In this document: in pieces, positions 2,442 to 21,868 of the stretch | Position numbering within the stretch: the first letter of the stretch is position 1 | Layout: the number at the start of each line of letters is the position of its first letter | NCBI RefSeq assembly: GCF_026151205.1 | Contig: NW_026971893.1 | Coordinates: 1 to 21,868 of the forward strand | Reading direction: 5' to 3' | Origin: Bolinopsis microptera | Lineage: Eukaryota > Ctenophora > Tentaculata > Lobata > Bolinopsidae | Length of the DNA: 21,868 nucleotides | Made by a program: the position numbers and the translations under genes | Notes under the pieces: generated by a model | Seen by the model: the letters and a program-made list of their open reading frames with translations, nothing else | Databases searched by the model: none | Told to the model about the DNA's origin: nothing

Positions 2442-2534
2442 CTTAACGAACGTATTTTCTGTAATTGTCAACTCTCTGTACAATCGTTCGCTGTTCAGTA
2501 GCTGTTTGAAACAGTCTTTCTCTATTTCTTCTGT
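2442..2534 (-). CDS. Probable internal exon, same gene as 2197-2295
   Basis: On the minus strand, a 93-nt phase-0 segment lies between an acceptor (ATTATCAAAATTTCAG, ending at 2535) and a donor (GTAAAT at 2441-2436). It encodes 31 residues, starting TEEIEKDCFKQLLNSERLYR and ending NTFVK. The helical, charged character matches the exon downstream. Joining the two across the 146-bp intron keeps the frame. The open frame continues into the flanking introns only by chance. The residues after NTFVK are encoded by the AT-rich intron. Confidence 0.55.
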
Positions 2535-3310: not shown

Positions 3311-3360
3311 AATAAATGTCGTAAATAAATGCCGTAAATAAATGTCGTAAATAAATATTT
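3311..3360. repeat. 13-bp tandem repeat, about 3.7 units
   Basis: The unit AAATAAATGTCGT is repeated, with one T-to-C change in the second full unit and a decayed last unit (AAATAAATATTT). Confidence 0.85.
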
Positions 3361-3381
3361 GTTTTATTAATGAAATATGTG

Positions 3382-3495
3382 GGAACCTCGCACCGGGCAC
3401 CACGAGTGTGATTCGTTTAACTTATTGTTTAAGCTAGGAATTAGCCCGTTAACTAACCATTTGCATTACACTTGTGGTGCCCGGTGCGGCGTTCC
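3382..3495. repeat. GC-rich hairpin with 31-bp arms
   Basis: Positions 3382-3412 and 3465-3495 are inverted copies with four mismatches. The core GCACCGGGCACCAC is perfect. The 52-bp loop is AT-rich. An ORF of 125 codons on the plus strand (3377-3754) runs through this and the next hairpin. Its product resembles nothing I know, and the foldback structure explains the openness better than coding does. Confidence 0.75.
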
Positions 3496-3534
3496 TCACG
3501 AAATTCTGACTTTTTCTAGCCGGACAATAGACAT

Positions 3535-3629
3535 CCGTTCAGACCACTGGGAGACTTTGGGTAAGGGAACTGATCCGGCCCCAAGAGGTCATATTACAAC
3601 TTACCCAAAGTCTGGCAGCCCGTTCAGAC
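3535..3629. repeat. Second hairpin bracketed by a CCGTTCAGAC direct repeat
   Basis: A perfect 14-bp inverted repeat, AGACTTTGGGTAAG at 3552-3565 and its complement at 3600-3613, has a 34-bp loop. Direct repeats CCGTTCAGAC lie at 3535-3544 and 3620-3629. Together with the hairpin at 3382-3495 it makes a compact structured segment within AT-rich flanks. Confidence 0.65.
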
Positions 3630-3763
3630 AATGTTATTTACATGTGACATTTAAACGGCATAAGTCTAGATTATTTGAACTGTCTGAGAATTTTCTAAAC
3701 AGCGTAAAAAATCTACCACCCACTCATGCATTAAATACTAAATCTAACATTTAGTTCACAAAC

Positions 3764-3952
3764 TTTTAGCTTAGTTTCGGCAGTAGTCTGATGAGAGGAT
3801 ACAGCAACAGGGTGACTATTAGCCTGATCTAGCGCAGTGCTTCTCTTGCGCTCAGCACCTGATTTATTACTGGGGTATGCTCTGAGAGTTCGGCGCTCTG
3901 CATCTGCTACCAAGCTGTTCACCAGGTGAGGATTATGTATTTCTATACTCAT
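3764..3952 (-). CDS. Candidate first coding exon, unrecognised product
   Basis: The minus strand is open from an ATG at 3952 (context GCCAAGAAATGA) for 73 codons to 3731. The first 63 codons have balanced, protein-like composition, starting MSIEIHNPHLVNSLVADAER and including AYPSNKSGAERKRSTALDQ. The tail is AT-rich and probably non-coding. A weak donor (GTTTGT) after position 3764 would leave a phase-0 exon, compatible with the phase-0 exons at 2442-2534 and 2197-2295. This link is inferred, and the donor is poor. It could equally be a chance ORF or part of a decayed gene. Confidence 0.3.
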
Positions 3953-4135
3953 TTCTTGGCACTATGGGAGGTTGTTAGATAATATTCAGACATATATCAT
4001 AAAAAATCAGTTTTAAAGAATCTAAATGCGTAACCTTCTTAACCAGCTACATGGAACTCAATGATTCGAATGAAAATATGCTATCTCTCACATCTAAAGC
4101 AATGAAGAGTCTTCGGTAATTAATTTGTCAAAAAA

Positions 4136-4330
4136 TATCCCTCCGTATCAAGGACAAAAGGAAATCGCGGCACGTGCGGAATCGCGATTTTCTCCATTCT
4201 CCGCGACAAATCGCGATTTTTCACGTTTGCCGCGACAAATCGTGATTTTCTCAGATCCATGCGACAATTCGCGATTTTTAAAGTTCTCCGCGACAAATCG
4301 CGCATTTTCCTTTAAATCTGGTGACCAAAT
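4136..4330 (-). repeat. CGCGATTT-type dispersed repeat, copy 2
   Basis: This is the inverted counterpart of 1353-1463, but longer. At least five units of a roughly 30-bp motif built on ACAAATCGCGATTTT are present. They are followed by a short direct duplication of ATTTTCCTTTAAATCTG (about 4304 and 4337). The terminal CAAGGACAAAAGG at 4149-4161 matches the end of the other copies. Overlapping ORFs on both strands result from the palindromic units. Confidence 0.7.
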
Positions 4331-4440
4331 TTGCGTATTTTCCTTTAAATCTGCGTGTAAAATATCACGTTCTCTATAAGTATATGGAACCAATCACGTC
4401 CACAGCCTTCCGAATGTAGGTACAGACTTGAAAAAACATT

Positions 4441-4475
4441 TTCGGCTAATAATGATCAGGGTAGCATGAACCATC
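4441..4475 (+). repeat. Dispersed TAATGATCAGGGTAG motif, copy 2
   Basis: The segment reads TTCGGCTAATAATGATCAGG and continues GTAGCATGAACC. It is the inverted partner of 1237-1270. Together with 4136-4330 it reproduces, as a mirror image, the arrangement found around 1237-1463. Confidence 0.55.
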
Positions 4476-4813
4476 ACATGGCATGGAGTACGTTTAGGCA
4501 CTTGATATCATTTAAGAATGTGTAGTGTGTAGTAATAGTATGTAACTGGAAATTATCGAGAATATGTAGTGTGTGAACAGCAATTCCAGAATATGTAAGA
4601 TTATTGTCCCTCGATCCTCGAGTCTCTCCGGATCGGCAACAATTAATACAGCACTCATGAGCAGCTCAAGCCTCAATGTGCAATAATAAATAAAATATTA
4701 AACGCTATAAAGGATTAAGGAACCAGGATGTATCACATTCTTTTCAGATTCATAGGCACTAGGCAGCGATCATAGCAGTCTGGCCCCACATGATCAAATC
4801 TAGACTAGTATTA
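4476..4813. other. Intergenic, no gene seen
   Basis: The only structure noticed is a short diverged direct repeat, AATATGTAGTGTGTG-like, near 4517 and 4562. No open frame is convincing. Confidence 0.5.
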
Positions 4814-7689
4814 TAGTACAGACAAATCCGTCTGAAAAAATCGATCTGCTGACACACGAAGCTTTCAGAGGATTTTTGACGTTTTTGAGTCCCATTAGGT
4901 GCCCTTTATGGCTGACCAACTTTTCCAAACTTTTCCACTTGTCTTAAGGCCACTTTTTGCCACTTTACCACTTTTTACCACCTTTCTTGTTTGTCGAATA
5001 TCTTTAGTTGTGAACATCGTAAAAGGTTGCGGATCAATCGAGTGTGTTCATATTATCAGGAAAAAAAACTTTTGTTCAAACAATTTTTACGTCAGATAAT
5101 AAGTTAATTGGATAATTATCAATTAACTAATTAGCAAAATTCTAAAAATTTTTTATTGGCTCAAAATGATCGGAATAGCTTGAAACACGGAGAAAAGTAT
5201 TTTTTAGAAAAACTTTGAAAATTTTTCACTTACATTTTTTTTTCGAGACTTAAAAAAATTTCGAAAATTCAAAATATTTTTTCCGCCAAAAGTGATCAAA
5301 CCGCATGAAACACGGAGAAAAATGCCTTTCAAAAAAAGTTAATACTTAAATCGCCAATATTTGTAGTTGGAGTTCAGTAAATCTCGGCAGATTTTAGTAA
5401 TCAGGAATTACTAAGTGAAGAGGTCTGAAACTGAAAAACGTTAACCATACAATCGCGCGGCGATATAAGAGTTTCATAAACTAATTTTCACAGAAACTGC
5501 ACCAATGGCACAGTCAAGATCGAAACGATAGCCTGCTGTACTGTCATTTTATTGATTTCAATGATGAATCAGTGGGGTTAAGATAATCACATTTGTAATA
5601 AATAAACATCTCTGTACCGTCAATTGTGCTAATCTAAACCAGCCTACCTGTATTACCAGACCTCTTCTTTTCCTCGACAATCAAACCAAGTTGTTCATAT
5701 CGCATTTGGTGGGTGATGTAAGTAGTAATACATATCGAGCTGTATTCAATCACAATACGACACAATGCAATACGTGTATATTATATTATGGTCCTTAATG
5801 AGGTATATGAAACGTTCTATACCGTACACTTCTCGTTACTCCAGTGAGAGGCCCAGTATGGAGAGGTTTAACAGTTTAGCACGAAAACGTCTACTTGGCC
5901 TCATGGCTCTTTGACAGCTCAAAGAAGGCGAGAAAAGACCAGAAAGCTTAAATTTTCAACTCCACATTAATCCTGAGCTGATCATCATGGCCCCGAATAT
6001 CCTACGGGAAGAACCTGTATTTTTACCTCACGACGTCCGGATTTCAAATCAACACCCTCAATAACATTAACAATCCTTCCTGATCAGGATCTGTCTCTAT
6101 TAGCAATTTCCAAAATATCCTGACTCTCGTGGAACATTTCACTGAATTAATTATTACTGGTTTTTTATTACCCCTCGCCCGTCATTCGTATCTACATCTT
6201 ACCCTTGCCAGTATGTTACCCTTGCTGATTTTACGTTTAGCCGACCCTGACATATGGGGGTGATTTGAGGTAACCACCGATCCAGCATAGTAAATGAAGC
6301 GGTATGCAGAACAATACAAAACAAGTCACAGTTGATGTTGGAAGGTGTATTTACACTTGCTTCCTGGACCTGGCTGTTCCTTAGTTTCCCTGATCTGTTC
6401 TTGCCTTCTTCGAACTGTAAATGAGCCATGAGGCCAAGTATACGTTTTCGTGATAAACTTTAAAACGTCTCTATACCGGGTTTCTCACGGTATAAAGCGT
6501 TACATAAACCTCATTAGTCATTAAGAGCCATATAATATACACGTATTGTGTCGTAGTCTGATTGAATACAGCTCGATATGTATTAGTTTCAATACTTTCA
6601 ACACTATACTATATAACAAATAATTTTAATGACAGGATGGATTACTGAGGGCACTGTGTTAAGGTGATTTAAGTGGGTCCCAATTCCCACCGACCATTCT
6701 TCTTTGTGTTATGAATACTTGCTTCATCATCTCCTTTTAATAAAAATCACGGTGTCTTTATTGACTAAGCGCATTACTACTTACATCACCCACCAAATGC
6801 GATATGAACAACTTGGTTTGATTGTCGAGGAAAAGAAGAGGTCTGGTAATACAGGTAGGCTGGTTTAGATTAGCACAATTGACGGTTCAGAGATGTTTAT
6901 TTATTACAAATGTGATTATCTTAACCCCACTGATTCATCATTGAAATCAATAAAATGACAGTACAGCAGGCTATCGTTTCGATCTTGACTGTGCCATTGG
7001 TGCAGTTTCTGTGAAAATTAGTTTATGAAACTCTTATATCGCCGCGCGATCGTATGGTTAACGTTTTTCAGTTTCAGACCTCTTCACTTAGTAATTCCTG
7101 ATTACTAAAATCTGCCGAGATTTACTGAACTCCAACTACAAATATTGGCGATTTAAGTATTCTTGAAACGAAAAATTCACTAAGTTTTTTTGAAAGGCAT
7201 TTTTCTCCGTGTTTCATGCGGTTTGATCACATTTGGCAGAAAAAATATTTTGAAGTCTCGAAAAAAAATGTAAGTGAAAAATTTTCAAAGTTTTTCTAAA
7301 AAATACTTTTCTCCGTGTTTCAAGCTATTCCGATCATTTTGAGCCAATAAAAAATTTTTAGAATTTTGCTAATTAGTTAATTGATAATTATCCAATTAAC
7401 TTATTATCTGACGTAAAAATTGTTTGAACAAAAGTTTTTCTTCCTGATAATATGAACACACTCGATTGATCCGCAACCTTTTACGATGTTCACAACTAAA
7501 GATATTCGACAAACAAGAAAGGTGGTAAAAAGTGGTAAAGTGGCAAAAAGTGGCCTTAAGACAAGTGGAAAAGTTTGGAAAAGTTGGTCAGCCATAAAGG
7601 GCACCTAATGGGACTCAAAAACGTCAAAAATCCTCTGAAAGCTTCGTGTGTCAGCAGATCGATTTTTTCAGACGGATTTGTCTGTACTA
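4814..7689. mobile_element. Foldback-type element: 2.88-kb imperfect palindrome
   Basis: The outer arms (4814-5729 and 6773-7689, about 916 bp) are nearly identical inverted copies. They start TAGTACAGACAAATCCGTCT and are flanked by TTA on both sides, or by TA if the ends are read one step in. A second, more diverged inverted segment continues inward (about 5730-5950 and 6380-6585), leaving a roughly 430-bp centre (5951-6379) without a recognisable gene. The arms differ by substitutions and several indels, for example about 18 extra bases in the right arm near 7160-7185. They are therefore not a sequencing fold-back. Identical 66-codon ORFs in the two arms reflect arm identity, not coding. 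The superfamily is unknown. Confidence 0.75.
6586..6772. mobile_element. 187-bp extra segment in the right arm, flanked by ATTA
   Basis: The left arm passes directly from GTAGTAAT to ACATATCG (around 5729). In the right arm the same junction is interrupted by 187 bp, with ATTA at both borders (6582-6585 and 6773-6776). This is the pattern of an insertion with a 4-bp target duplication, or of a microhomology deletion in the left arm. No terminal inverted repeats are visible. Confidence 0.5.
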
Positions 7690-7740
7690 TTAGACAGGAT
7701 TAACTACCTGAACATTACCAGAAAACCAAAAAAAAACAAT

Positions 7741-7774
7741 GTTAGGCTCATAATGATCAGGGTAGAATGAACTG
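7741..7774 (+). repeat. Dispersed TAGGCTCATAATGATCAGG motif, copy 3
   Basis: The segment begins GTTAGGCTCATAATGATCAG and continues GGTAGAATGAACTG. It matches copies at 1237-1270 (minus) and 4441-4475 (plus). Confidence 0.6.
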
Positions 7775-7870
7775 TGGAGACAATATCTTTCCAGGAATCC
7801 ACTTTCACAAGTATTTCTTAACCCACTCCCACTCGCCTGCTGAGTGCTGACGTAACCTTGTTGGCCAATG

Positions 7871-8004
7871 ACTTGACCACATAAAGGTGACCACTTTAAG
7901 TTGACCACTTGACATATAAAACTTGACCACTAGACATTAACTTGACCACTAGACGTCATATAAAGCTTGACCACTAGACATTAACTTGACCACTAGACAT
8001 ATAG
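7871..8004. repeat. Minisatellite of CTTGACCACTAGACATTAA-type units
   Basis: Seven occurrences of TGACCAC are spaced 13-25 bp apart. The last four units (from 7922) share CTTGACCACTAGAC, with alternating tails ATTAA and GTCATATAAAG. The first three are shorter and more diverged. Confidence 0.85.
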
Positions 8005-8057
8005 TAATTCACTGAAGTTGATTCTAAAAATTTGAAAAAAAATTGTACCTTACAGTG

Positions 8058-8123
8058 CCTGTACGGTACGTACCTTTAAAAGTAGCTGTACCGTACGTAC
8101 TTAAAGCCCTGTACCGTACGTAC
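8058..8123. repeat. Three spaced copies of CTGTACCGTACGTAC
   Basis: Near-identical 16-bp blocks lie at 8058-8073, 8085-8100 and 8108-8123, separated by 11 and 7 bp. The self-complementary GTACGTAC core means each copy can form a small cruciform. No known element is recognised. Confidence 0.8.
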
Positions 8124-8137
8124 TTGCCATCTAAGGG

Positions 8138-8326
8138 CCTAGGAAGAGCTTAAATGATGTATTTATTGAGGATGCTGAGCAGGGATTGGATCAGAATGGA
8201 CTCACGATTGATTGTATGAGAAGATTAGCTGCAGATCGAAACGGATGGAGAAATGTTACCTGCCGAAGTTGTATAATACAAAGTCGACGCAGACTAATCC
8301 TTTTGGATGGACATCTCGCCATGTAA
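8138..8326 (+). pseudogene. LINE ORF2 C-terminal fragment (RTE/CR1-like tail)
   Basis: A 62-codon open frame with no start Met ends in TAA at 8324-8326. It carries the signature of the extreme C-terminus of many non-LTR retrotransposon ORF2 proteins. That signature is a proline/arginine-rich PRKSLNDVFIEDAEQ segment, a GL..., then LAADRNGWRNVTCRS, which corresponds to the usual 'A.DR..WR' motif. Everything upstream, including the reverse transcriptase, is missing, so it is a 5'-truncated, dead LINE copy in plus orientation. The assignment rests on motif memory and the fragment is short. Confidence 0.55.
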
Positions 8327-8370
8327 CATGTATGTATGTTTTGCTTGTTATTGAACAATGGACCGCTTGT

Positions 8371-8400
8371 CGATTCGCGATTTTCTTTTGTCCTTGCTCC
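8371..8400 (+). repeat. CGCGATTT-type repeat, short copy 3
   Basis: The segment begins CGATTCGCGATTTTCTTTTG and continues TCCTTGCTCC, matching the terminal part of the repeats at 1353-1463 and 4136-4330. It lies just downstream of the LINE fragment. Confidence 0.5.
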
Positions 8401-9191
8401 GTATTATATATGAAGTGATGAGATTAGATTTGTCGGTAGCTGCCAGAAAAACAAACTTATATCAATTAAATACAATTTTTATATCTAATTTGGAAACAAT
8501 TGTGAAAATAAAATCACTCATTTTAACATTTAACATTTTCAATTACTCGTATTTTTGTCCAGCATAACGAAATTTTGTTGCATCAAAAAGCCATTTTCAC
8601 AAATTAATGTTTCGTCCGTACATTAAATTATTCAACAGATCATCATCATAACTTTCAAATATTACCTACTATAATCAACCTAAAAAAGATTGGAAAAAAA
8701 ACGAATTTCTCTATCCTATATCTAGTATCTACAGATAAAAATATCAGTGATTATACTCAACCATCACAGCTTTTATCGAAATTTCATATAAAATCGTGAA
8801 TTATTCTACAAAAAAGACGTTAATAATGTTCCAGCACTCAAATGATCTGTTACAAAACAAACCCCAGAAAATTAACTACACTGTTATCAGAGACTTTCGT
8901 CCGTTTACTAATCGAAATTCTGTGATAAAACCACACTTGAATTTACAAGCAGTTAATAAATACTTTACTTGGTAATACGCAATCAAATTTAATGCAAAGA
9001 ACAGGAAGCAAATATCGGGTTGAGAACTTGAACAGATTCTTGTAAACAATTTAGGGCACACACTGCACCTAATTGTTTCATGCTTCTAAAGGGAGATCTA
9101 TCCAGATAGCTTTATACAGTGACAAAAATAGCAAGTCCACAAATGATATCAGAAGTTCTGAAAAGTGGGAAAACTGAAAATAACAACATTC
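8401..9191. other. Intergenic region downstream of the PPP1R42-like gene
   Basis: AT-rich DNA that must contain the 3' UTR of the minus-strand gene ending at 9192. I find no AATAAA on the minus strand close to the stop. Immediately after the stop the minus strand reads GTGAGAATG and, about 40 bases on, CCCACTTTTCAG, which resembles a tiny intron. A short alternative C-terminus by splicing is possible but unproven. Confidence 0.4.
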
Positions 9192-10951
<1,760 letters not shown>

Positions 10952-11353
10952 TCACTTTGCTTTGTCTCTAAAATAATCAGCCAAGTTTTCAACAGCCTCT
11001 ACACAAATACTAGGGTACATATTGTTAGCGTAGGTTGCTATGATAACCAGTGTGTTAGTCTTAACAATGATCACACCACCCTCATTTCCACCCTCTACTC
11101 TTGCGTAGATACTGTTCTTGTCACTCCTCAGACAATGGTACTCCTGGTTTGTGCTAGTCAAGTGGAACCCTTCACTGCGCAGTAAGGTAGGTTCCCGAAA
11201 AAACTTGACAATACAACTCAGTTCCTCAGGGTCTAGCATGAAGCCAACTGATGAGGCACGAAGAGATGAGTCCTTGCGGCGGATAATAGCAGCGTGTTCC
11301 ACATGTGATGTTGAGATCAGACCATCTTGGAGCAGGCTTTGTAAGTGATTCAT
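10952..11353 (-). CDS. PFN4: Profilin-4-like protein
   Basis: The 133-residue product aligns end to end with vertebrate PFN4 (about 129 residues). The N-helix starts MNHLQSLLQDGL. The middle includes YHCLRSDKNSIYAR (72-85) and GGVIIVKTNTLVIIATY (92-108). The C-helix is NMYPSICVEAVENLADYF (111-128). The open frame extends 19 codons further 5' to 11410, but homology puts the start at 11353. PFN4 is the divergent testis-enriched profilin. In mammals it has weak or no actin and polyproline binding, binds acidic phospholipids, and supports acrosome and manchette formation. In agreement, this protein has no tryptophan at all, so the usual polyproline-binding tryptophans are absent. The gene has a single exon and lies upstream of, and co-oriented with, the PPP1R42-like gene. 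Confidence 0.93.
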   Translation of the reverse strand: MNHLQSLLQDGLISTSHVEHAAIIRRKDSSLRASSVGFMLDPEELSCIVKFFREPTLLRSEGFHLTSTNQEYHCLRSDKNSIYARVEGGNEGGVIIVKTNTLVIIATYANNMYPSICVEAVENLADYFRDKAK

Positions 11354-11749
11354 TGTGAGCAACTGGAGGATAGCATGGTTAGCAATTATAAAGGAGTCTA
11401 ATCTCAGCAAATTCTCGATAAACTTAAGGTTTACATGGGACGCTGTAAATAACTATGTAATCATTCTCAATATTAATGTGTTACTTATTAATAATTTATT
11501 ACTTATTTCGAATCTGCTTCTAGGCAAATGTCCTATTAGGTTTTATATGAAGTCACTTTACCGAAAGATGGGGAAATCAAATAACCATATACTCAATACC
11601 AAAAGTGTCATAATGTCTAAATCTAATCAAATCAAATCAAATAATAATGACACAAAACATCACACAACATCATAAATATTTAATTAATTTAAATATAATT
11701 TTAGGTTCAAAGACCTAGTAAAAATATACTTAATTATACTTTATAATTA
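11354..11749. other. Upstream region of profilin-4, otherwise empty
   Basis: The sequence is AT-rich, with a short AATCA run (about 11624-11640). It should contain the profilin-4 promoter on the minus strand, but no specific element can be pointed to. Plus-strand open frames here are composition artefacts. Confidence 0.4.
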
Positions 11750-11850
11750 TGAGCATTATATTTTCATTGTTATAAATTTGTTGATTCTGTAAAATGTGCT
11801 CAAATTTCCTGTTTCATTTAATTTCTTGTTTCATTGACTATATAAGTTGA
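11750..11850 (+). repeat. Diverged dispersed repeat, copy 1 (partner at 14101-14220)
   Basis: TGAGCATTATATTTT, then AAATGTGCT and AATTTCTTGTTTC occur in the same order and orientation here and at 14101-14220, with substitutions and indels between them. The family is unknown. Confidence 0.6.
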
Positions 11851-11929
11851 TAAAGCATTTATTAGCAACATTTGCCAAACAATTGATCATGTGATATGTG
11901 AACAACCCTTTGTGATCTAGGAGACCGTA

Positions 11930-12345
11930 AAGCTTATCTCAATCTAAGGGATGAAGTTAAAGGATACGTCTTGCAACGTTGCGCCCCCACCCAAAAAGTG
12001 TCCCCCTCTTGACACCCCCTCCCCTTTTATAAAGTTAAAATTAGATGATTAAAGAGGATACACAAGTAAAATCTCTAAAAAAGTGTGTTTTTAGACTCTA
12101 GAGCATAACTCACAATTTTGCTAGTACTTGAGTTAAGTTTTTCAAAATGTCCACATTAAAATGATGATTTAGCACGCCCCTAAGTTGGCAACCCCCCCCC
12201 CCCCTCCCCTTGCACAGCGGGGTCAGCGGGGCATTCCTTACGCCACAAGATGCTGGCACAGCATTGCTGAGCTGGATCTTCCTCTGATTCCCATCAGTGC
12301 AATGAGTGTGCTCCTTAACAGATCAAACCTGAATCGTGTTCTGAT
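11930..12345. other. Low-complexity C-rich DNA upstream of an RT remnant
   Basis: Clusters of C-rich sequence (about 11980-12030, and a C13 run at 12192-12204 followed by TCCCC) alternate with AT-rich DNA. Upstream of the RT remnant a second plus-strand frame is open for about 38 codons (12230-12345). It is not recognisable. Confidence 0.4.
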
Positions 12346-12570
12346 ATGATTTTTGATTTGATGAGAACCATCCCTGATAGTGCAGAGAGCTTGCAGCCCA
12401 TCAAGGACAATATCAGGTATTTACTCATTCCCAACATGACAGGTCACACAATATGGTTAGACCTCGAGCATGGCCTATTCTCCCTCAAATCAAAGTTAGC
12501 TGGACTAGCTATCACTAATCCAGTAGAAATGTCTTCCAAAGATCACTACTTGCTGGCCACACACATCTGA
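12346..12570 (+). pseudogene. Reverse-transcriptase-associated protein remnant
   Basis: The 74-codon open frame carries segments that I recognise from the region downstream of the RT domain in retroelement proteins common in invertebrate genomes. These are LMRTIPDSAESLQPIKDNIR, then YLLIPNMTGH, then LFSLKSKLAGLAITNPVEMS. The usual form is MRTIP...IPA(L/M)TGH...LPxxLGGLGIxNP. Compared with that, the two glycines of LGGLG are changed to LAGLA, and no RT domain remains upstream. It is a decayed fragment in plus orientation. A polyadenylation-like AATAAA lies about 70 bases downstream (near 12641). The exact retroelement class cannot be fixed from this piece. Confidence 0.5.
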
Positions 12571-12726
12571 ACGAAATTCCCCTAGTCTAGTGTTTTCCAA
12601 GTCTTGTCCTGTGAGTAAAGTATGTGTGAGAAAGGTTTTAATAAAATTAATGCATATTTTTGAATTTTTAAGATTTAATTTGAGAATGAAGTATAAAGAA
12701 ATTTTTAATTAGCACTGTATAATTTA

Positions 12727-13606
12727 CAGTGGTCGACCAGGGGCAGGATTCTGACCAGGGCCGGGGAACCCCAATATAGCCGGGGCCGGGTCTGACTACT
12801 GAGAATTGGCCGGGGCCGGGAAATCTTCCATTTTGCCGGGGCCGGGGGTAGTTTACCAAACTGAAGTTAGAAATTGAAACATGAATTTGACAATAATTTA
12901 GGCTGGTGTGATGCAATCGGGAAGAATTAAACTCAAGGTGCGGCTTATCCTCACCGACTTGAGGATTAAACCGCAACTTCGTGCTGTGAACCAACTCAGG
13001 ATAATCCTCATTATCCTGAGATCCATGCTTAATTTCTAATCCTCAACTCGGAACTGAGGATAACCCTCAGCTGCTACTTTATCTTGACCTCGGGATTTAA
13101 AAGTAATCCCACATCCAAATATGGCTCAGTTCACAAAAATTTACCATAAATGGTAGGCTCTGTAGTTTACGTTGAGCCTTAGTTTTAGCTGCAGTGCAGT
13201 ATTTTTACTTTCTAGTTTCTACGTATGTTTTATCGCAAATTTCTCGGAGACGATTAATTGAAAAGTCTGATCATACTGAGGAAGAACCACGGTTTTTATG
13301 TTACTAGCCGTAGTCTAATTTAAGCTGTATGTTGTATTTTTTATATTTAAACATACTCAACATAGACAATAAATTTTTCAACTTTGAAATCTCCTAATTA
13401 CCATTAAATTGTGTTTGATTTTTTTTTTAAATGTGCCAAAATCATTTATAAAATCCCCGGCTGTGCCCCCGGCAAATGCATGGTTTTTGGCCGGGGTTAA
13501 ATTAATTGGCCGGGGCCGGGGTTTACCCCTGGCAATTTACCAAATTTTGGCCGGGCCGGGAAGGGCCGGGGGTTGTGATTTTGGCCGGGGCCCCAGTCGA
13601 CCACTG
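12727..13606. mobile_element. Non-autonomous hAT-like element (880 bp) with GGCCGGGG subterminal repeats
   Basis: The terminal inverted repeat CAGTGGTCGAC (12727-12737, complement at 13596-13606) is perfect for 11 bp and then degenerates. It is flanked by an exact 8-bp direct repeat, ATAATTTA, at 12719-12726 and 13607-13614. As in the element at 454-865, both ends carry many GC-rich units (GGCCGGGGCCGGG) mostly on one strand, embedded in AT-rich DNA. No transposase is encoded. The two elements share the CAG end, the 8-bp duplication and the overall design, but not sequence, so they are separate hAT-like families. Confidence 0.87.
12934..13085. repeat. Cluster of nested hairpins built on TGAGGATTA/TAATCCTCA
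   Basis: Inside the hAT-like element, the motif AGGATWA and its complement recur at least eight times. They form several hairpins, including a perfect 10-bp stem CTCAGGATAA/TTATCCTGAG (12995-13004 and 13011-13020, loop TCCTCA). Another is a GCGG...CCGC-closed hairpin at about 12938-12973. This may be a nested insertion or an internal binding-site array. Confidence 0.65.
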
Positions 13607-13614
13607 ATAATTTA

Positions 13615-13912
13615 AGATATTTATAGCTTATTATATAACCATTGATACAAAGGCCTTAATTTTTCACCAGCTCTCCAATATCCATCTTGAAGTTGCATTT
13701 TATATCATCAAACTACACAATATAAACTTGAGCATACTATATAGTGTAGACTTTCTGTCACAACAAGACTGCAACCCATAGTAACAAATAAAAACAAAAC
13801 CCCTAATGTCTGCTAACAATTTTCTTCTGATCCTAATATGAGCCTTTTCTCTAAAAACTCAACTGAACTAGCTTTTCGGTGTGTGGAAAAGCTTCCAGGC
13901 ATGCACATTCAT
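13615..13912. other. Intergenic, no feature seen
   Basis: AT-rich sequence without repeats or credible coding frames, between the hAT-like element and the first GCGCGC-type repeat. Confidence 0.5.
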
Positions 13913-14022
13913 TGACTGATGTTACTCGTCTAAATTTCTTCGAAGTAGCGCGCGCCGCTTTCTTCTCGAAAGCCCGATGGCACGAGCTACGAAGTAGCGC
14001 GCGCCGGGCCAGATCATGGTCA
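13913..14022 (+). repeat. GCGCGC-type dispersed repeat, copy 1
   Basis: The block starts GATGTTACTCGTCTAAATTT, contains CGAAGTAGCGCGCGCCG twice about 50 bp apart, and ends GGGCCAGATCATGGTCAA. A near-identical copy lies at 14942-15057. Its GC-rich, AT-poor composition contrasts with the surroundings. A 74-82 codon ORF on either strand through it is not conserved as protein. Confidence 0.8.
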
Positions 14023-14100
14023 AGCACATTCATTGCCCCGTTAGTTACCTGTCCCTTCAAAATCAAACTAACAGTCAAGGACAAAAAGTCATACACCAAA

Positions 14101-14220
14101 TGAGCATTATATTTTTATAAATTGTTTTACACCTTTTTAATCTGTGAAATGTGCTAAAAATTAAATTTCTTGTTTCGTTGAAAAAATTTCTTGTTTTATT
14201 GAGAAATATATAAAATTATT
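14101..14220 (+). repeat. Diverged dispersed repeat, copy 2
   Basis: This is the same-orientation partner of 11750-11850, beginning TGAGCATTATATTTTTATAA. Internally, AATTTCTTGTTT is duplicated (about 14163 and 14187). Confidence 0.55.
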
Positions 14221-14635
14221 CAAACAATATACACATAATTGTCACAATGACCCTATACAAAAACAACCCTTCAAAAAATCAATATATTCCCTATCGCAAA
14301 TATTTGGAGAAACATTTGAATATTAACCTTGGCCTTGTGGCTCTAAATTCAAATCTAAACTGTTTATATCAACAAAGTTCTTTCTCGCACCTCTGTCCCC
14401 CCCCCCCCCCCCCCCCGTACAGAAATCACTGTTGTTCTTAGGATTTCGAAACGAAGGCACTTCCTTATGTATCCAACAGCATCTGAATAACTTTCATTGA
14501 AAATTAGTGTAACAAATTGGCTAACCAGCAGCTTACAGAAAACATTTTAAAGCAATATACCACATAGTTGCTTTGCTAATTCGCAACGCAACGATCTAGA
14601 GGGGCCAGGGTTGACATTGTCAATCAAAAGGTCCC
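14221..14635. other. Intergenic, includes a C20 homopolymer (14397-14416)
   Basis: The C20 run is the longest homopolymer of the window and ends a spurious plus-strand ORF as polyproline. Otherwise nothing is recognised. Confidence 0.5.
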
Positions 14636-14690
14636 TTACTGGGCGGAGCTCAGCCTGTCATTCCGCCGAATCTTTATTGTTTATGAACAT
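14636..14690 (+). repeat. CTCAGCCTGTCATTCCGCC repeat, copy 1
   Basis: TTACTGGGCGGAGCTCAGCC, then TGTCATTCCGCCGAATCTTT and TTTATGAACAT recur at 21649-21705 (nearly identical) and, in shortened form, at 21526-21560. One copy abuts the GATGTTACTCGT motif of the GCGCGC-type repeat, so both may be parts of one interspersed family. Confidence 0.75.
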
Positions 14691-14941
14691 GATAGCCTGA
14701 GTTCCCCAGGTAAGAGGTCCCAAATATAAAATAAAAAGTATAATGTGATACCAAACTTCGACACGCCGCGCAAACAAGCATTTTTGCTTCGCAGAGCAAC
14801 GATCTCGATTATTAATCAAATGCATTAAACCAAAATGTAAACATTTGCATTTTGACGAAGTCAGAAGTAGCGCGCGCTGCGAAACACATTTTTAGCTTGA
14901 GTTGACATGCAATATTTGTAAAATATTATATTTGGTCTTGA

Positions 14942-15057
14942 CGGATGTTACTCGTCTAAATTTCTTCGAAGTAGCGCTCGCCGCTTTCTTCTCGAAATGG
15001 CCCGATGGCAAGTGCTACGAAGTAGCGCGCGCCGGGCCAGACCATTAACAATGGTCA
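14942..15057 (+). repeat. GCGCGC-type dispersed repeat, copy 2
   Basis: Aligns with 13913-14022 throughout, with a handful of changes (for example GTAGCGCTCGCCG for GTAGCGCGCGCCG) and a small insertion in the tail, CCATTAACAATGGTCAA. It is followed at 15060-15097 by CGTCGACGACTCCAACTAGG and a GC-rich tail, a motif that recurs in the palindrome at 21000-21225. A partial CAGAAGTAGCGCGCGCTGCG copy lies just upstream near 14862. Confidence 0.8.
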
Positions 15058-15097
15058 AACCGTCGACGACTCCAACTAGGTGCGCGTCTTGGCGCGC

Positions 15098-15368
15098 CTT
15101 TGATACATGTTTCGTATCCCAATATCAGGCCCAGCAGACCTTACCGGCTAGCGATATTACTACAGGGTGATCGCCTTTTCACAGCTTGTTGAGCTCCGCG
15201 CGCGCTCGTGAGTTCATTGCATTTGCACGCTTCAAACATTCCAAAGATGCAATTGTACCGCGTACCACGTGATACGATTCAGCCAATCAGAGAACAACAA
15301 TCTGCAAAGTTAAAGCTGTGCAGTTTTATATGACCTAAAATATGACTTTTCGCGATAATTCAAAATCT
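15098..15368. other. Intergenic, no gene seen
   Basis: Mixed composition with short GC-rich islands (CTCCGCGCGCGCTCGTG near 15195) that resemble flanks of the GCGCGC-type repeat. No exon or clear element boundary. Confidence 0.4.
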
Positions 15369-15380
15369 ACGTTGTTTTTA

Positions 15381-15652
15381 ATTTTCCCCCTGCACAGGGG
15401 GGGCTGAAACCAGGTTTTCGATCAAACGCTGCCATTTGTGGTCAAACTTCGCCAACAGTTGCTCTCGTCCAATGAAATCGCTGCATTTTGCCTGCCATTA
15501 TGCATAATTGAATTACATATATTCGTATGCGTGGCTTCGCTTTCATAATGCAGCGATTTCATTGGACGAGAGCAACTGTTGGCGACGTTTGACTACAAAT
15601 GGCAATGTTTGATCGAAAACCTGGTTTCAGCTCCCCCTGTGCCTGGGGGGAA
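15381..15652. mobile_element. MITE with arms of about 100 bp and imperfect 12-bp flanking direct repeat
   Basis: The arms 15382-15479 and 15547-15652 are inverted copies sharing GCTGAAACCAGGTTTTCGAT and CAACAGTTGCTCTCGTCCAA, among other blocks, with few mismatches. The termini are TTTCCCCC...GGGGGGAA. Flanks ACGTTGTTTTTA (15369-15380) and ACGTTATTTTTA (15653-15664) differ by one base, consistent with a target duplication of about 9-12 bp, as made by Mutator-like elements. The loop of about 67 bp is AT-rich. No coding capacity. Confidence 0.75.
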
Positions 15653-15664
15653 ACGTTATTTTTA

Positions 15665-15984
15665 CAAGGCGAACATTTTATTGAAAACCAGACGTTTCTA
15701 TCTCTTTTACTTTCAAAGTTAGGCTCCAGCCAGTATAGTTTCCTGGGATGCCTTCTGCGGTCGCGCGCTACTGCAAGCGAGAGGGCTCTGGATAGAGCAG
15801 ACGTTAGGAGAAAAGACAATTTTTTGAGAAAAGACAATTTTATTATTTATCACCAATTCAATACATAATCAATAAATATATATCCGAATAAATTTGATTA
15901 AAAATTAAATGATACAAGTATGCTAGCAGCTAGCGCGCTTATATTTGATAAATATTCACGCTGTTAAAATGGGTTTTACCACAC
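15665..15984. other. Intergenic, no gene seen
   Basis: Plus- and minus-strand ORFs of about 90 codons span the MITE boundary and are not credible as genes. The remaining sequence is AT-rich with no repeat recognised. Confidence 0.4.
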
Positions 15985-16067
15985 CGCCACTCACATTAGC
16001 ACAGTTGGTGAACGGACCCAGGCGCTGTTAAGCTTTTATGAGCCCTGGTTGACTGCTGAGAGTGGCG
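15985..16067 (+). other. tRNA-like relic (degenerate tRNA pseudogene or SINE head)
   Basis: CGCCACT and AGTGGCG at the two ends form a perfect 7-bp acceptor-like stem across 83 nt. TAGCACAGTTGG (from about 15996) fits the Pol III A-box consensus TRGCNNAGYNGG. About 50 bases on, GGTTGACTGC partly fits the B box, inside a loop of seven bases closed by a poor 5-bp stem. The anticodon arm does not fold convincingly, so a functional tRNA is unlikely. Confidence 0.25.
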
Positions 16068-16252
16068 AAGGGGCTGATATTAATTTTATCTTAGTTTAAC
16101 CTAGATTCCAATAAAATTTTAGTTTTGTGTTATAATTATATGATTTTTATGCGATATTTAAGTTACAGCTGCTCGCAATACATTATTGCTTAAAAATTGT
16201 TAAATATGCTCGCTATACGCTTAATTTTAGATACCGTATGTATATATACATA

Positions 16253-16510
16253 TCAGCTCATAATACCAAATAACAATAATAAATAAATTAAAAGCATTGA
16301 AGAGGTCCAAAACCAATTCAAGCATGACACAAAGTTAAATACATTTTCATCGGAAGCTTCAAGCTTATTAACGTTTGATTCCGTACGTTCATGATCCGTT
16401 ATTATGCATTCACCTTCAGGCGGTGTCGACGGATCATGCGAAAAGGGTTTTTGACAGGCTGTGCCCTTACCATAATTAAACTGAACCATTGCCTGATACG
16501 ATGTAAACAA
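16253..16510 (-). CDS. Hypothetical short ORF with hydrophobic C-terminus
   Basis: An 85-codon minus-strand frame encodes a polar N-terminal part (HDPSTPPEGECIITDHER at about residues 25-42). It ends in a hydrophobic stretch (SSMLLIYLLLLFGIM, residues about 70-84) followed directly by the stop. The layout is that of a tail-anchored membrane protein, but AT-rich DNA often encodes such leucine/isoleucine runs by chance. An inner Met (MVQFNYGKG) is an alternative start. No homologue is recognised, no splice context supports it, and the surroundings are repeat-rich. Confidence 0.2.
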   Translation of the reverse strand: MFTSYQAMVQFNYGKGTACQKPFSHDPSTPPEGECIITDHERTESNVNKLEASDENVFNFVSCLNWFWTSSMLLIYLLLLFGIMS

Positions 16511-16806
16511 GAGTGTTGGATAGGTGAGCCGCGCAAGCGCTCGCGCATTTGTGTCGCTCTGACAAATAGCACTTGAATAATTTAGCTACCAAGACGTAAA
16601 TCGCGCGTTACGTAAAGTATTATTTTTCCCTTCGAATAAAGTGAACGTTACACCCGCGTGTAACCTGCTTTAATGTTTTGTGTGCATGTGTGGTGGAGTG
16701 AGTGTATAATGAAATGATTGAATGAATCTTTTTTCTTTTGTGGTGCATATATGATGTGAGTGACAGGTGTAAAATCTAAAATATATAAATATAAATGGGG
16801 GTCTTT
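16511..16806 (-). other. Probable LINE 3' UTR and flank
   Basis: On the minus strand this follows the LINE stop codon at 16807-16809, so part of it is the 3' UTR of that element. The 3' terminus is not marked by a clear tail or target duplication. A small perfect hairpin, GTTACAC-CCGC-GTGTAAC, lies at about 16644-16661. Confidence 0.4.
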
Positions 16807-16907
16807 TCATAGGAAAGTGTTGAAGTTTAAGTCCTGCCAGTTAATATTGTCAGGTTGGTGTTGAGCCTTCATGATAGAAAGCTTCAATCGGGATTTAATT
16901 GAACCTA
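16807..16907 (-). pseudogene. 3' end of the split LINE ORF
   Basis: Read on the minus strand from the target duplication (16900-16907), this continues the reverse-transcriptase frame of 19759-20820 for 30 codons, beginning IKSRLKLSIM, to a TGA at 16809-16807. A basic IKSRLK-type segment near the end is usual for LINE ORF2 proteins of this group. The two parts were one open frame before the 2.84-kb foldback element inserted. Confidence 0.8.
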
Positions 16908-19750
16908 GTTACTCTAGTAGCAGGGAATAGTTGAGTGTGCACTTCGATGTGTACTATTTCTGACAACACAGGGTTGTTTGTTAGGTCATTCTTAACCAAA
17001 ATCGTGTGGGTGCACAATTTGTTTCGCTAGAGACAACCCTACAGGGCAAATTTTCTAAATTACCCTCAGTCGCGTATACGAGATTTTCGTATTTCGGCTC
17101 CTGAAGGTCATAGGGACTTCAATTTTAGCTTAAAATTACCGCAATAGCCATATTTATATACAACTTATGAAGCAACATAAGGTCTCCAGTGCTTTGTTTT
17201 ATAGATATTGACAAAAAACTGTTTTTTGGCTCAGCGAACCAAAAATGGGACTGAATTTTGGTAACTTGAACTAGGAAGATCGTAGAGACTTGAATTTTAG
17301 CTTAAAATGAGCGCAAACATCACATTTATATACAACTTATAAAGCAATATAAGCCCTTTAATGCTTATTTGTTAAGATATTGACAAAAATCGGTCATTTT
17401 GACTACACGCGTGAGGAAAAATACCAAATTGGGCAACAACTTTGGTTTTTTTTTGACCAGTTTTGTGCTCAAGTTATTAAAATGTGCTTTGATGTTGTAG
17501 ATCGGGTGTTTTCTTCCAATATGGGTTTCGGTATAAATCCGGAAGCACCCGGTTCATGGGTGATAGGGGTTAAAAACCCTAAAATGTCAGGCGATGGGCG
17601 AGACAATTGTCTGAATTTGGTTATAAAACACTTGCACTCTTTGCTAGGGTTTGCTTTTTTCTGCTACATCGATCCGATTTCTAACTACTAATCATCCCCC
17701 TCTACATCATTCTCTTTTAGATACATGATTTCTATAAGTTCTTGAAGGTACATCCGGTATGATGTAAAGTCTATATCAAAGCATTTTAATGTGGTCTTAA
17801 CAAGTTACAAGATATTCAAGTTCACTAATAAAACAGAGATTGTAGGATATTCTTCTTTTACATATTGATTATTGAGTAATTTTGGTTACACATGCACATG
17901 TGAGGAAAGATACCAAATTGGTTTACCAAACGAAGATTGTAGGTTATCTATTATTCTTTACATGATTATTGACGCAACTTTATAGTCAAACCTGTATTAT
18001 TTTAAATTTTTAATATTTATCCACACTCTCCATAAGAATATTATTGGGAGTCATTTTGTGGTTAAAATTCGATTAAATCAGTATTTCCAAGCAAAAAACT
18101 GCCCCAAATTTCTCCTCCGAATATGGTCCGCTAGTTCGAAATTTTAGCACTTATAAACGTTATTGTTAGACATTACATTAGTGTAATACCACTGAGGCCA
18201 GATGTAGTAATCTATTCAGATAAAGCGAAGAAGGTGCATCTGAAATAAAGAGAACTTTGCTGATCAAGAGAAAAGAATATTAAGAGATATCAGCAGCTGA
18301 CAGAAGAGATTGCAAGCTCCAGACAGTAGCAGTTCGAGTTCGAGTTCGAGGCATTTACAACTGCAGCCTCCAAACCTTTATGAACCACCTGAACGTAAAC
18401 ACTAAAGAGAAAAAGGCCATCATACACCATCTATCTGTCCAGAAACACCATTATATGGACAGATGATTGGGAGTTAGTCCAGAGGCTAGTAATTGCATAG
18501 TAGGAGCGTATAATGTTTGTAGAATGTAATTATTTTTACAAACTACCTTTCAAAACTTATAGATCAAGTGATAGCCTACCCACAATTATATTACAACGTC
18601 AGTCGATATTGTTGCTAAAAATCAGGAGCAAGCGTCTTGAAACAGGATACCATGAATCTGTATAAGTTTTAAGTAGTTTCATTCTACGTTTAATATTATT
18701 ATTGGGTCGTTTACGTTAAAGTTATATTTGGCCATTTTATAGCCTCCCCTCAAAAAGCCCACAATTACTCAATAATCAATATGTAAAAGAAGAATATCCT
18801 ACAATCTCTGTTTTATTAGTGAACTTGAATATCTTGCAACTTGTTAAGACCACATTAAAATGCTTTGATATAGACTTTACATCATGCCGGATGTACCTTC
18901 AAGAACTTATAGAAATCATGTATCTAAAAGAGAATGATGTAGAGGGGGATGATTAGTAGTTAGAAATCGGATCGATGTAGCAGAAAAAAGCAAACCCTAG
19001 CAAAGAGTGCAAGTGTTTTTATAACCAAATTCAGACAATTGTCTCGCCCATCGCCTGACATTTTAGGGTTTTTAACCCCTATCGGCTATCACCCATGAAC
19101 CGGGTGCTTCCGGATTTAAATACCGAAACCCATATTGGAAGAAAACACCCGATCTACAACATCAACTTAGCACATTTTAATAACTTGAGCACAAAACTGG
19201 TCAAAAAAAGACCAAAGTTGTTGCCCAATTTGGTATTTTTCCTCACGCATGTAGTCAAAATGACCGATTTTTGTCAATATCTTAACAAATAAGCATTAAA
19301 GGGCTTATATTGCTTTATAAGTTGTATATAAATGTGATGTTTGCGCTCATTTTAAGCTAAAATTCAAGTCTCTACGATCTTCCTAGTTCAAGTTACCAAA
19401 ATTCAGTCCCATTTTTGGTTCGCTGAGCCAAAAAACAGTTTTTTTGTCAATATCTATAAAACAAAGCACTGGAGACCTTATGTTGCTTCATAAGTTGTAT
19501 ATAAATATGGCTATTGCGGTAATTTTAAGCTAAAATTGAAGTCCCTATGACCTTCAGGAGCCGAAATACGAAAATCTCGTATACGCGACTGAGGGTAATT
19601 TAGAAAATTTGCCCTGTAGGGTTGTCTCTAGCGAAACAAATTGTGCACCCACACGATTTTGGTTAAGAATGACCTAACAAACAACCCTGTGTTGTCAGAA
19701 ATAGTACACATCGAAGTGCACACTCAACTATTCCCTGCTACTAGAGTAAG
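16908..19750. mobile_element. Foldback element (2,843 bp) with arms near 1 kb, inserted in a LINE
   Basis: The arms (about 16908-17881 and 18763-19750) are inverted copies beginning TTACTCTAGTAGCAGGGAAT. An exact 8-bp duplication, TGAACCTA, flanks the element (16900-16907 and 19751-19758). Each arm holds a diverged tandem duplication of about 120 bp (left arm about 17103-17221 and 17275-17391). The roughly 880-bp centre carries scrambled, decayed copies of arm segments (17884-17990 resembles 17402-17433 joined to 17829-17882) and no transposase. The 103-codon ORF in the left arm (17380-17691) is frameshifted by indels in the right arm, so it is not conserved coding. Long arms and an 8-bp duplication fit foldback elements of the Mutator, P or hAT groups; I cannot choose. 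Confidence 0.88.
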
Positions 19751-19758
19751 TGAACCTA

Positions 19759-20820
19759 TTTTACCACGTGCATTTGACTGCTCAAGAAACCTATTCCATA
19801 AATTTGCCCCTTTATATGCGAAATTGTGAGATGAGTGTGGTGTCACAAATCTGTCATCTCTGAGCTCAGACTTCTTAAAGAGAGAATACATGGATATGGG
19901 CTGATGACTCTTCACTATCTTCATTGTTTCAGTAATGCATCTGTATCTATATATGTTATGTACTGTCATTAGTTCCTTAGATTGGAAAATAGGTTTTGTT
20001 GATTCTCTAGAGTGGAATTCTGCCCCAAGTATTTGGCAGCGATGTGGCCTTGCTTGTTTATCACCAGTCTTCCTCAAGCTGATACATATAGAACACGGTT
20101 TAATGTGAGGTATAGTTGATTCATTGGATATTTGACCTTTCTTGTTTATACTGCACTGGATTGGCCTGCTACGAGAACAAGTTTTAAACTTGTCGCTAAA
20201 TGCTTCCGAGTCCCCAAATAAGATTAGGACACATTTCTTCTGTGCAAGGAATAGCGGTGAAAGCTTATTAATTGATACACCACCCCATACAGTTATACCG
20301 TATCCTAGATGAGATTCAAAAAGAGTGTGGTATATCTGTTTGTACAGCTGGCTGGGGAGGGAGTTTTTTATTCGATAAATACGGCCACATATGCTGTTTA
20401 ATTTCTTAGTTAGTTTCTCGATATGAGGTGTCCAACTCAGTTTGTCATCAATAATTACACATAGAAATTTCGTTTCAGTAACCTGTTTGATCGGGATCCC
20501 ATCAATTTCTAGATTCAAGTCATTTTCAGTATTATCAATGGTCTTACGTTTAGTAGGCGAGAAGTACATGTAACAACATTTTTTAACATTAATGTGCAGT
20601 AGGTTATGGCGCATATATTGGCACACAGAGTCGAGAATTTCATTCGCTATTTTGTATGCTTGTTCCTTAGTTTCAGCAGCTACAAAGATGTTTGTGTCAT
20701 CTGCAAATAGTACAAATTTTCCTAATGTACTACATCTATAGATGTCATTTATATAGATAAGAAAAAGCAAGGGGCCCAAAACGGATCCTTGAATAGTATC
20801 AAGTATAGGGTTTCTGGGTG
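19759..20820 (-). pseudogene. 5'-truncated LINE reverse transcriptase (Jockey/CR1-type)
   Basis: The minus-strand frame encodes the second half of a non-LTR reverse transcriptase. It contains QGSVLGPLLFLIYIND (about 20750-20795), the catalytic FADDT motif (20693-20707), LLHINVKKC, and the downstream TKFLCVIIDDKLSWTPHI block, where the usual FLG is FLC. RT motifs upstream of QGS are missing, and the residues before it (DTI in place of the usual GVP) suggest the 5' truncation or decay begins here. The frame is open to the insertion site at 19759, and resumes at 16899. The protein would have copied LINE RNA at the target site. This copy is dead, lacking endonuclease and half the RT. The open frame upstream to 20875 includes non-element DNA. 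Confidence 0.85.
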
Positions 20821-20999
20821 CCGGTTTTGTAATAACATATATTATATATAATAAAACTTTTGTGTTAGTAAACACAATTATTTTTTATTGTGTTCGTATA
20901 AACATTAAAAATTTCATGACGCGGACAAAATGTGAATGACAATTTAGGCGCGCAGAACACCGTTAAAAATAACGGACGCGCGGACGATAATTTTACACT
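20821..20999. other. AT-rich spacer with a small CCGTT/AACGG hairpin
   Basis: Contains a 5-bp stem hairpin at 20960-20975 between GGCGCGC and GACGCGCG islands, which look like the outer flank of the palindrome that follows. Confidence 0.4.
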
Positions 21000-21225
21000 T
21001 AACGGGTGATACTCGTAAAATATCTGTTCCATATATTGGACCGTCGACGAGTCCAACTCGGCGCGCGTCCGCGGCCTGGTAGGTTGTAAACCTACAATTT
21101 TACACTACTTGATTAAAAGTTATGAAAACTTTGTAGGTTTACAACTTACCAGGACGCGCGCCGAGTTGGACTCGTCGACAGTCCAATATATGGAACAAAT
21201 ATTTTACGAGTATATCACCCGTTAA
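21000..21225. repeat. GC-cored palindrome with arms of about 92 bp
   Basis: The arms 21000-21093 and 21133-21225 are inverted copies with small indels. They share AACGGGTGAT, GTTCCATATATTGGAC, GTCGACGAGTCCAACTCGGC and GTTGTAAACCTAC. The loop is about 39 bp and AT-rich. Its CGTCGACGA(G/C)TCCAACT core is also present at 15060-15080, tying it to the GCGCGC-type dispersed repeats. Confidence 0.8.
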
Positions 21226-21525
21226 TGAAAACTTCGAGCGCTGAGTTACGAAGCAATTATGAGCGTTACGTTTTTGATTTTGAGTGCCACGCATAGAAAA
21301 TTACATGCATACATTTAAACGTTTGGTCTGTTTACACTAATATAATATGTAAAAAGTAAACAATTATGTTATACACAGTGCCGCAGGTTTTATACAACGC
21401 AATGCCGTGTAATTTACTGTTATTCCACTTGTCATTCCACCATATCTTCAATTGTGTATATAAACACAAAATCCTTATATGCAATACTGAATACGGTCAC
21501 GGCCCCAGAAACATGCTGCGCTTAA
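21226..21525. other. Intergenic, no gene seen
   Basis: AT-rich with no exon-like frame. It separates the palindrome from the next dispersed repeats. Confidence 0.5.
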
Positions 21526-21705
21526 GTTATTGGGTGACGCTCAGCCTGTCATTCCGCCGTTGATGGATGTTACTCGTTTAAATTAAATCAAGGTTTGACG
21601 TTGTGATCCCGCCGCGCACAAATACGCAGCAATAATATCATGCTTTCGTTACTGGGCGGCGCTCAGCCTGTCATTCCGCCGAATCTTTATTATGTTTATG
21701 AACAT
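21526..21705 (+). repeat. Two CTCAGCCTGTCATTCCGCC repeat copies with a GATGTTACTCGT segment between
   Basis: Copies lie at 21526-21560 and 21649-21705 (compare 14636-14690). Between them, GATGTTACTCGTTTAAATTA at 21565-21585 matches the start of the GCGCGC-type repeats at 13913 and 14942. Confidence 0.75.
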
Positions 21706-21868
21706 ACAACATAATTGTTTATTGCTCTGATGTATGCAATTAAATCACAATGGTTGTTATCAATCTATCTGAAAACTTATATAATTTGTAATGCAATACA
21801 TTATAGAATAAATGCAATTAGAAATATCAATAACAGTTCCTATCTTACTAGAAAATTAACTGAAAACT
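21706..21868. other. AT-rich DNA to the window end
   Basis: No feature recognised. Confidence 0.5.

Follow-up and report, generated by a model that had tools for sequence, protein, structure and literature searches.

The inverted-repeat element at positions 16910-19748 of contig NW_026971893.1 of Bolinopsis microptera (C134; with its full 21,868 bp this contig is the window of our analysis) is very probably a non-autonomous, foldback-type DNA transposon with terminal inverted repeats (TIRs), moved in trans by a putative transposase with a 3-nt stagger. It has defined borders, is flanked by a 3-bp duplication of its target, is absent from a homologous stretch, exists in many and recently mobile copies, holds no long open reading frame and has arms that are closer within a copy than between subfamilies. 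It lies within a long interspersed nuclear element (LINE), whose minus-strand flank encodes a reverse transcriptase (RT; RVT_1, E=1.2e-10, Pfam). The genome surveyed comprises 264.65 Mb in 232 contigs; contigs are numbered here with C and loci with L. The element, its site and its host are laid out as follows:

16910..19748, unstranded: foldback-type element, 2,839 bp, ends TACTCTAGTAGCAGGG...CCCTGCTACTAGAGTA (shared ends, variable flanks, empty homologue on C3)
16907..16909, unstranded: left target-site duplication AGT (3-bp overlap of the C3 alignments, empty-site letters of C3)
19749..19751, unstranded: right target-site duplication AGT (C3 alignments, empty-site letters)
16900..16907, unstranded: left word TGAACCTA, a native LINE repeat and not a target-site duplication (C3 homologue, 14 of 15 LINE copies)
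19751..19758, unstranded: right word TGAACCTA, a native LINE repeat (C3 homologue, LINE copies)
19752..20792, minus strand: RT coding part of the host LINE (RVT_1)
16700..16909, outer limit approximate, minus strand: C-terminal coding end, stop and 3' part of the host LINE beyond the insertion (letters common to the 3' ends of L062-L076 and the C3 homologue)

Outside the window, the LINE flank matches best on contig C3, and this match is also the only other one, among those listed, that covers the flank in full. Window 2507-21715 aligns colinearly with this stretch (C3:2639300-2655900), at 98.2-99.8% identity in the larger blocks and 93.5% in one block of about 320 bp, and the two are probably haplotigs. 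The LINE is present in both, the foldback element in the window only, which bears out two statements of an earlier sequence-only reading, namely that an inverted-repeat element had inserted into a LINE and that the LINE came first. C3 lacks exactly the element and one AGT: the two flank alignments share a 3-bp overlap (L061 2141-2143), and the empty site reads TGAACCTAGTGAACCTA across the junction, in fuller context ATTTAATTGAACCTAGTGAACCTATTTTACC.

The same reading had placed a 2,843-bp element at 16908-19750 between two copies of TGAACCTA, taken as an 8-bp target-site duplication, and had held borders and duplication length to be proven by this. The letters of the exact 8-bp repeat are as described, but both words, 9 bp apart, are also present in the C3 homologue that has no element, and the junction letters of C3 recur in 14 of 15 other LINE copies, the fifteenth (L071) being substituted there at equal length. 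Since C3 and all 15 copies keep the 9 bp which an 8-bp duplication would remove, the pair belongs to the LINE itself: TGAACCTAGTGAACCTA is native to the LINE, with TGAACCTA as its own 9-bp-spaced repeat. The second argument had been that the minus-strand RT frame continues for 30 more codons once the element and one word are skipped. The natural frame on C3 does run on across the site (...ARGKIGSLGSIKSRLK...NTFL-stop, the junction part being ARGKIGSLGSIKSRLKLSIMKAQHQPDNINWQDLNFNTFL-stop), though for 33 codons past GKIGS, and the 8-bp version drops L-G-S, exactly three codons, from it. Because the two versions differ by 9 bp, that is, by three codons, the frame fits both and is blind to the choice between them.

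Twenty-five two-ended copies share the ends TACTCTAG...CTAGAGTA (at most 2 mismatches in 16 bp), while the flanks directly outside vary, and 32 of the 40 arm matches scored (best 40 of 599 candidates) begin at query base 50 or 51, corresponding to window 16909-16910. A 3-bp duplication abuts the ends in 24 of the 25 copies, window included, compared with 18/600 in a flank-swapped control; the strict end motif recovered 22 of the 25, 21 of these with 3 bp, and the remaining three all have 3 bp. The duplicated triplets are A/T-rich without a fixed word. An 8-bp pair in the manner of TGAACCTA occurs at the earlier offsets in 1/22 copies tested, the window alone. The outcome that the sequence-only reading had itself named as refuting it, other element copies with a different duplication length, has thus come about. 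Loci with one end only in the stretch examined (L039, L040, L047, L049, L050 and L054-L059) were left out of this count, as were the tandem array L046 and L048. The latter has both ends, the left one changed, with TAG on each side and the flanks of L045; it is a duplicate of the L045 insertion, and counting it would give 25/26.

Concerning the host, 33 of the 41 LINE matches listed begin at query base 27 or 28 (window 20792-20791), and the LINE is probably 5'-truncated at about 20792; the alignment of the C3 homologue extends past this boundary through 20818. This search scored the best 40 of 440 candidates, and the 3' ends of 15 further copies were examined. Within the element, we recognised the following parts:

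16910..17885, plus strand: left arm (inverted-repeat blocks I1, I2, I3, I7, I9 and I10), 94-100% complementary to the right arm
18759..19748, minus strand: right arm, arm-to-arm identity in the window 0.9966 over 886 aligned positions
17103..17399, plus strand: two 125-nt subterminal direct repeats of the left arm with a 172-nt period (D1 78%, D2 80%)
17886..18758, unstranded: central spacer of 873 nt, common to the subfamily of the window (spacer search)
18188..18519, plus strand: decayed 3' coding end of another LINE within the spacer, 71% DNA identity to L041:4271-4668

The long inverted-repeat blocks measure 319 nt (99%), 286 nt (98%) and 261 nt (99%), accompanied by shorter ones, and the direct repeats of the left arm are mirrored in the right arm at 19268-19555. 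The only stop-to-stop frame of at least 80 amino acids fully inside the element has 109 amino acids and no Pfam match. For the spacer, 29 of 48 matches listed begin no later than query base 18 and reach at least base 859 of the 873 (best 40 of 169 candidates, window included). Its LINE remnant gave a protein match at C134:18135-18314 and, judged by its motif, carries what we take to be a restriction-like endonuclease domain; the related LINE at L041 has an open frame of 1147 amino acids. That LINE (C9:8866060-8871700), with an RPDVVIYS motif, has a head-to-tail second copy 3,862 bp away, with 99.9% identity in the 987 bp that are available from both, and other LINE pairs from the remnant protein search show a similar spacing.

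The family is abundant and recently mobile. Its 21-bp end, allowing 2 mismatches, gave 284 forward and 303 reverse matches, counts which are inflated by a 43-bp tandem array containing the tip, and none in either direction with the reversed pattern. L021 and L029 lie on C7 and C5 and show no difference over 843 + 2,226 bp, yet their duplications read ATA and GAG. A 496-bp miniature inverted-repeat transposable element (MITE), L045, has the same ends as the foldback and the duplication TAG. Between subfamily A, to which the window belongs, and subfamily B (L024+25, L042-L044), 461 bp of arm show a divergence of about 18%, and the spacer LINE remnant found no match in the three subfamily-B copies tested (L042-L044).

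Some loci deserve mention in their own right. L045 (C1:16311882-16312577) and L048 (C1:16439000-16441556), about 130 kb apart and with the same flanks, represent one insertion in a segmental duplication. At L046 (C2:493700-495700), the unit of the 43-bp tandem array matches the first 23 bp of the foldback end at 95.7%, forming a satellite with a transposon tip. At L054 (C4:4018400-4022980), a single foldback tip follows a short tandem array whose translation shows QLKYMIDVDS; about 2.8 kb from the tip lies an open frame whose match to 7tm_1 stays below the threshold (E=4.7e-5). In L049 (C7:2159453-2162025), an insert of about 2.3 kb is bracketed by an exact repeat at least 101 bp long, and a 230-amino-acid frame of this locus (RYIDDGAGMF) looks RT-like by eye and has no Pfam match.

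The arms of single copies are closely alike, with a within-copy identity of 0.9745-1.000 (0 to 2.6% difference) among the 25 copies. As independent divergence since the split of A and B predicts a left-right difference about as large as that between A and B, the two arms appear to evolve together. In a midpoint-rooted FastTree of the 50 arms, left and right arms are sister tips in 16 of 25 copies, and by plain identity the arms of 13 copies are strictly closest to each other. As judged from these comparisons, the data support a repeated re-symmetrisation of the arms, though not in every copy.

The insertion in the window is young and real. We propose that a putative transposase, probably of the DDE type and supplied in trans, recognises the TACTCTAGTAGCAGGG ends and excises the element in a cut-and-paste movement; the element would then be joined to a target cut with a 3-nt stagger, and repair would leave the 3-bp duplication. 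In the present case, the LINE would have been truncated before the element entered it, and the insertion would have happened on one of two sequences that resemble haplotypes. The observed likeness of the two arms of about 1 kb may be kept up by gene conversion or by hairpin-templated copying.

Several points weigh against this picture. L038 has a 4-bp duplication, GTAC, and what is found on C3 could represent a duplication of the locus instead of an allele. Only 10 of the 16 sister-arm pairs have a support of at least 0.8, 9 of 25 copies are without sister arms, and by plain identity the arms of 12 of 25 are equalled or beaten by an arm of another copy; among the nine copies without sister arms are some that are near-identical to another copy (L021/L029, L052/L060, L031 beside L030) and some whose arms are short (L022, L045), but L033 and L034 belong to them too. 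Moreover, the arm symmetry could be inflated by the assembly of long palindromes. Finally, no autonomous partner or transposase was found in the loci examined. When nine single ends were traced inward for about 4.5 kb, L052, L053 and L060 turned out to be ordinary two-ended copies, and for the others no second end was found. Pfam analysis of 10 frames from L040, L049, L051, L053, L054, L055 and L059 gave RT, RRXRR, receptor, MFS, HAD or nothing, and no transposase, the remaining frames in the loci opened inward from ends being judged by eye. A variant end, L047, occurs in only 2 places and has no partner within 13.1 kb.

The window holds a second foldback with a 3-bp duplication:

4814..7689, unstranded: second foldback, 2,876 bp, ends TAGTACAGACAAATCC..., with arms of 435 nt at 99% and 389 nt at 99%

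Its duplication TTA stands at 4811-4813 and 7690-7692, and C3 is empty here as well, reading CTAGACTAGTATTAGACAAGATTAAC. Its best match to the first foldback has E=1.0, and the two families appear unrelated, with no homology detectable between them. The search for this family scored the best 40 of 1,404 candidates, and 12 two-ended copies, window included, were checked as a selection of the pairs; all 12 had 3-bp duplications (flank-swapped control 10/132). One of them, L079, is a related foldback nested inside another. Two unrelated 3-bp foldback families with filled and empty homologues offer material for studying how arms stay symmetric.

Long near-identical inverted arms around a non-coding middle give the first element the architecture of a foldback-type TIR transposon, and dispersed copies with the same ends, a fixed 3-bp duplication and an empty site place it among them. 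Foldback (FB) elements and Galileo (P superfamily) of Drosophila resemble it in their long arms, structural dynamism and mostly non-autonomous nature, and differ by duplications of more than 3 bp and by different ends. We found no terms for arm homogenisation in a paper on Galileo (PMC3573991), and passages of PMC2872659 and PMC3422177 had no bearing on the matter. The report on the foldback Tetris of Drosophila virilis (PMC4079207) suggests Mutator partly on the basis of duplications of 8-10 bp and names Mutator as the superfamily to which foldbacks are mostly assigned. Like Tetris as described there, our element is non-coding, has long inverted arms holding internal tandem repeats, shares its ends with a short MITE (DAIBAM in Tetris, L045 in this genome), contributes to satellite-like arrays (TIR-220 in Tetris, the 43-bp unit of L046, which holds the tip) and has yielded no autonomous copy (PMC4079207). 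Unlike Tetris with its 8-10 bp, it makes 3-bp duplications, and the likeness considered here is one of architecture. In the titles and abstract beginnings covered by our literature survey, no foldback with 3-bp duplications was met, which is not proof of absence.

The length of the duplication is an important clue to the superfamily when no transposase is known. Mutator, hAT, P and Merlin make duplications of the 8-bp class (8-10 bp in Mutator), and with 3 bp found here they were rejected; in particular, the length speaks against a placement in Mutator. Duplications of 3 bp are made by Academ and Chapaev3, and canonical Harbinger prefers TWA targets. PIF/Harbinger fits in length, but TTA or TAA make up only 3/25 duplications of the first family. 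Further makers of 3-bp duplications are Zator (PMC10045372) as well as EnSpm and Harbinger/Nuwa, with EnSpm ends reading 5'-CAC..GTG-3' (PMC12730594). EnSpm/CACTA fits in length, but the ends here are TACTC...GAGTA, not CAC...GTG. For Zator, the length fits as well; its family model PF07592, an ISAzo13-like transposase, was silent in this genome (0 matches) and equally in all 14 control genomes. It is conceivable, though rather unlikely, that we deal with an undescribed superfamily that has TA-ended TIRs and makes 3-bp duplications. Foldback arms would then have arisen in it two times or more, and during transposition the arms would be re-copied from one another, for instance by way of a hairpin intermediate or of gap repair with one arm as the template, which would make new copies symmetric from the start.

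That the empty locus on C3 is the product of a precise excision or deletion from a once-filled site would fit the precise excision of some TIR transposons; excision usually leaves a footprint, however, and 14 of 15 non-allelic LINE copies share the uninterrupted junction letters, which is why we regard C3 as ancestral and an emptied site as very unlikely. Even if true, it would leave the 3-bp duplication unchanged.

Another origin was considered on account of the long copies. The four longest copies of the first family among paired ends (L021, 4.7 kb; L022, 6.4 kb; L023, 8.5 kb; L024+25, 12.5 kb) and two long copies of the second (L079, L080+L081) were opened. LINEs were found in L022, L023, L024+25 and L080+L081, a further insert of about 1.6 kb in L021 and another foldback in L079. 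Within foldback ends and 3-bp duplications, L022 holds an RT frame of 1041 amino acids and L024+25 a frame of 1983 and an APE-RT frame of 1211 amino acids. Together with the LINE C-terminal domain remnant in the spacer of window-type copies, these frames would suit a TIR-flanked retroelement, whose autonomous form is LINE-like and encodes an RT and whose short copies are deletion derivatives. However, the two RTs differ in make, with zf-RVT in L022 and an endonuclease/exonuclease domain in L024, and near-identical full-length copies exist elsewhere: for the L024 protein there are 5 further full-length copies at 98-100%, and for the L022 protein 12 at 99-100% covering residues 19-1041 (one with a stop) and another, partial copy from residue 11. 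Compared by eye, none of these lies beside any of the foldback ends listed. The LINE nearest to the remnant sits in a head-to-tail array, and the subfamily-B copies L042-L044 are free of the remnant. The LINE in L023 is related to that of the window (42% identity over 347 amino acids). With four different RT proteins in L022, L023, L024+25 and L080+L081 (family 2), among the few long copies opened, we dropped this explanation as extremely unlikely and read the retroelements as apparent nested insertions. A literature search found no paper mentioning together terminal inverted repeats, an RT, a restriction-like endonuclease, a non-LTR (non-long terminal repeat) retrotransposon and a target-site duplication.

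An element at 16908-19750 with TGAACCTA as the duplication of an 8-bp-class superfamily, for which the exact pair and the continuing frame had spoken, has practically no chance left, given that C3 and the LINE copies keep both words or equal length without it and that, among the copies tested, the pair is confined to the window and 3 bp prevail. The case is a warning: an exact 8-bp repeat and an open frame looked like proof, and both came from the host LINE. Because Tetris was placed in Mutator partly on its 8-10 bp (PMC4079207), an 8-bp reading could have misfiled the family.

Apart from the foldbacks, the window differs from C3 in smaller features. A 249-bp MITE at 15393-15641 with ends CACAGGGG...CCCCTGTG is not on C3 and is flanked by the 4-bp duplication CCTG at 15389-15392 and 15642-15645. 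Conversely, the C3 homologue of the TTAA site at 11424-11427 has a 2.0-kb insertion with ends AGGACCAGTTAACTG..., which the window is without. A hairpin with 62-nt arms at 97% and 81 nt between them lies at 21009-21213, and near it, 103 bp at 21372-21474 are replaced on C3 by 22 bp. The stretch shared with C3 also encodes, both on the minus strand, a leucine-rich-repeat protein frame at 9192-10253 (LRR_4, E=1.2e-17) and a profilin frame at 10952-11452 (E=3.5e-34).

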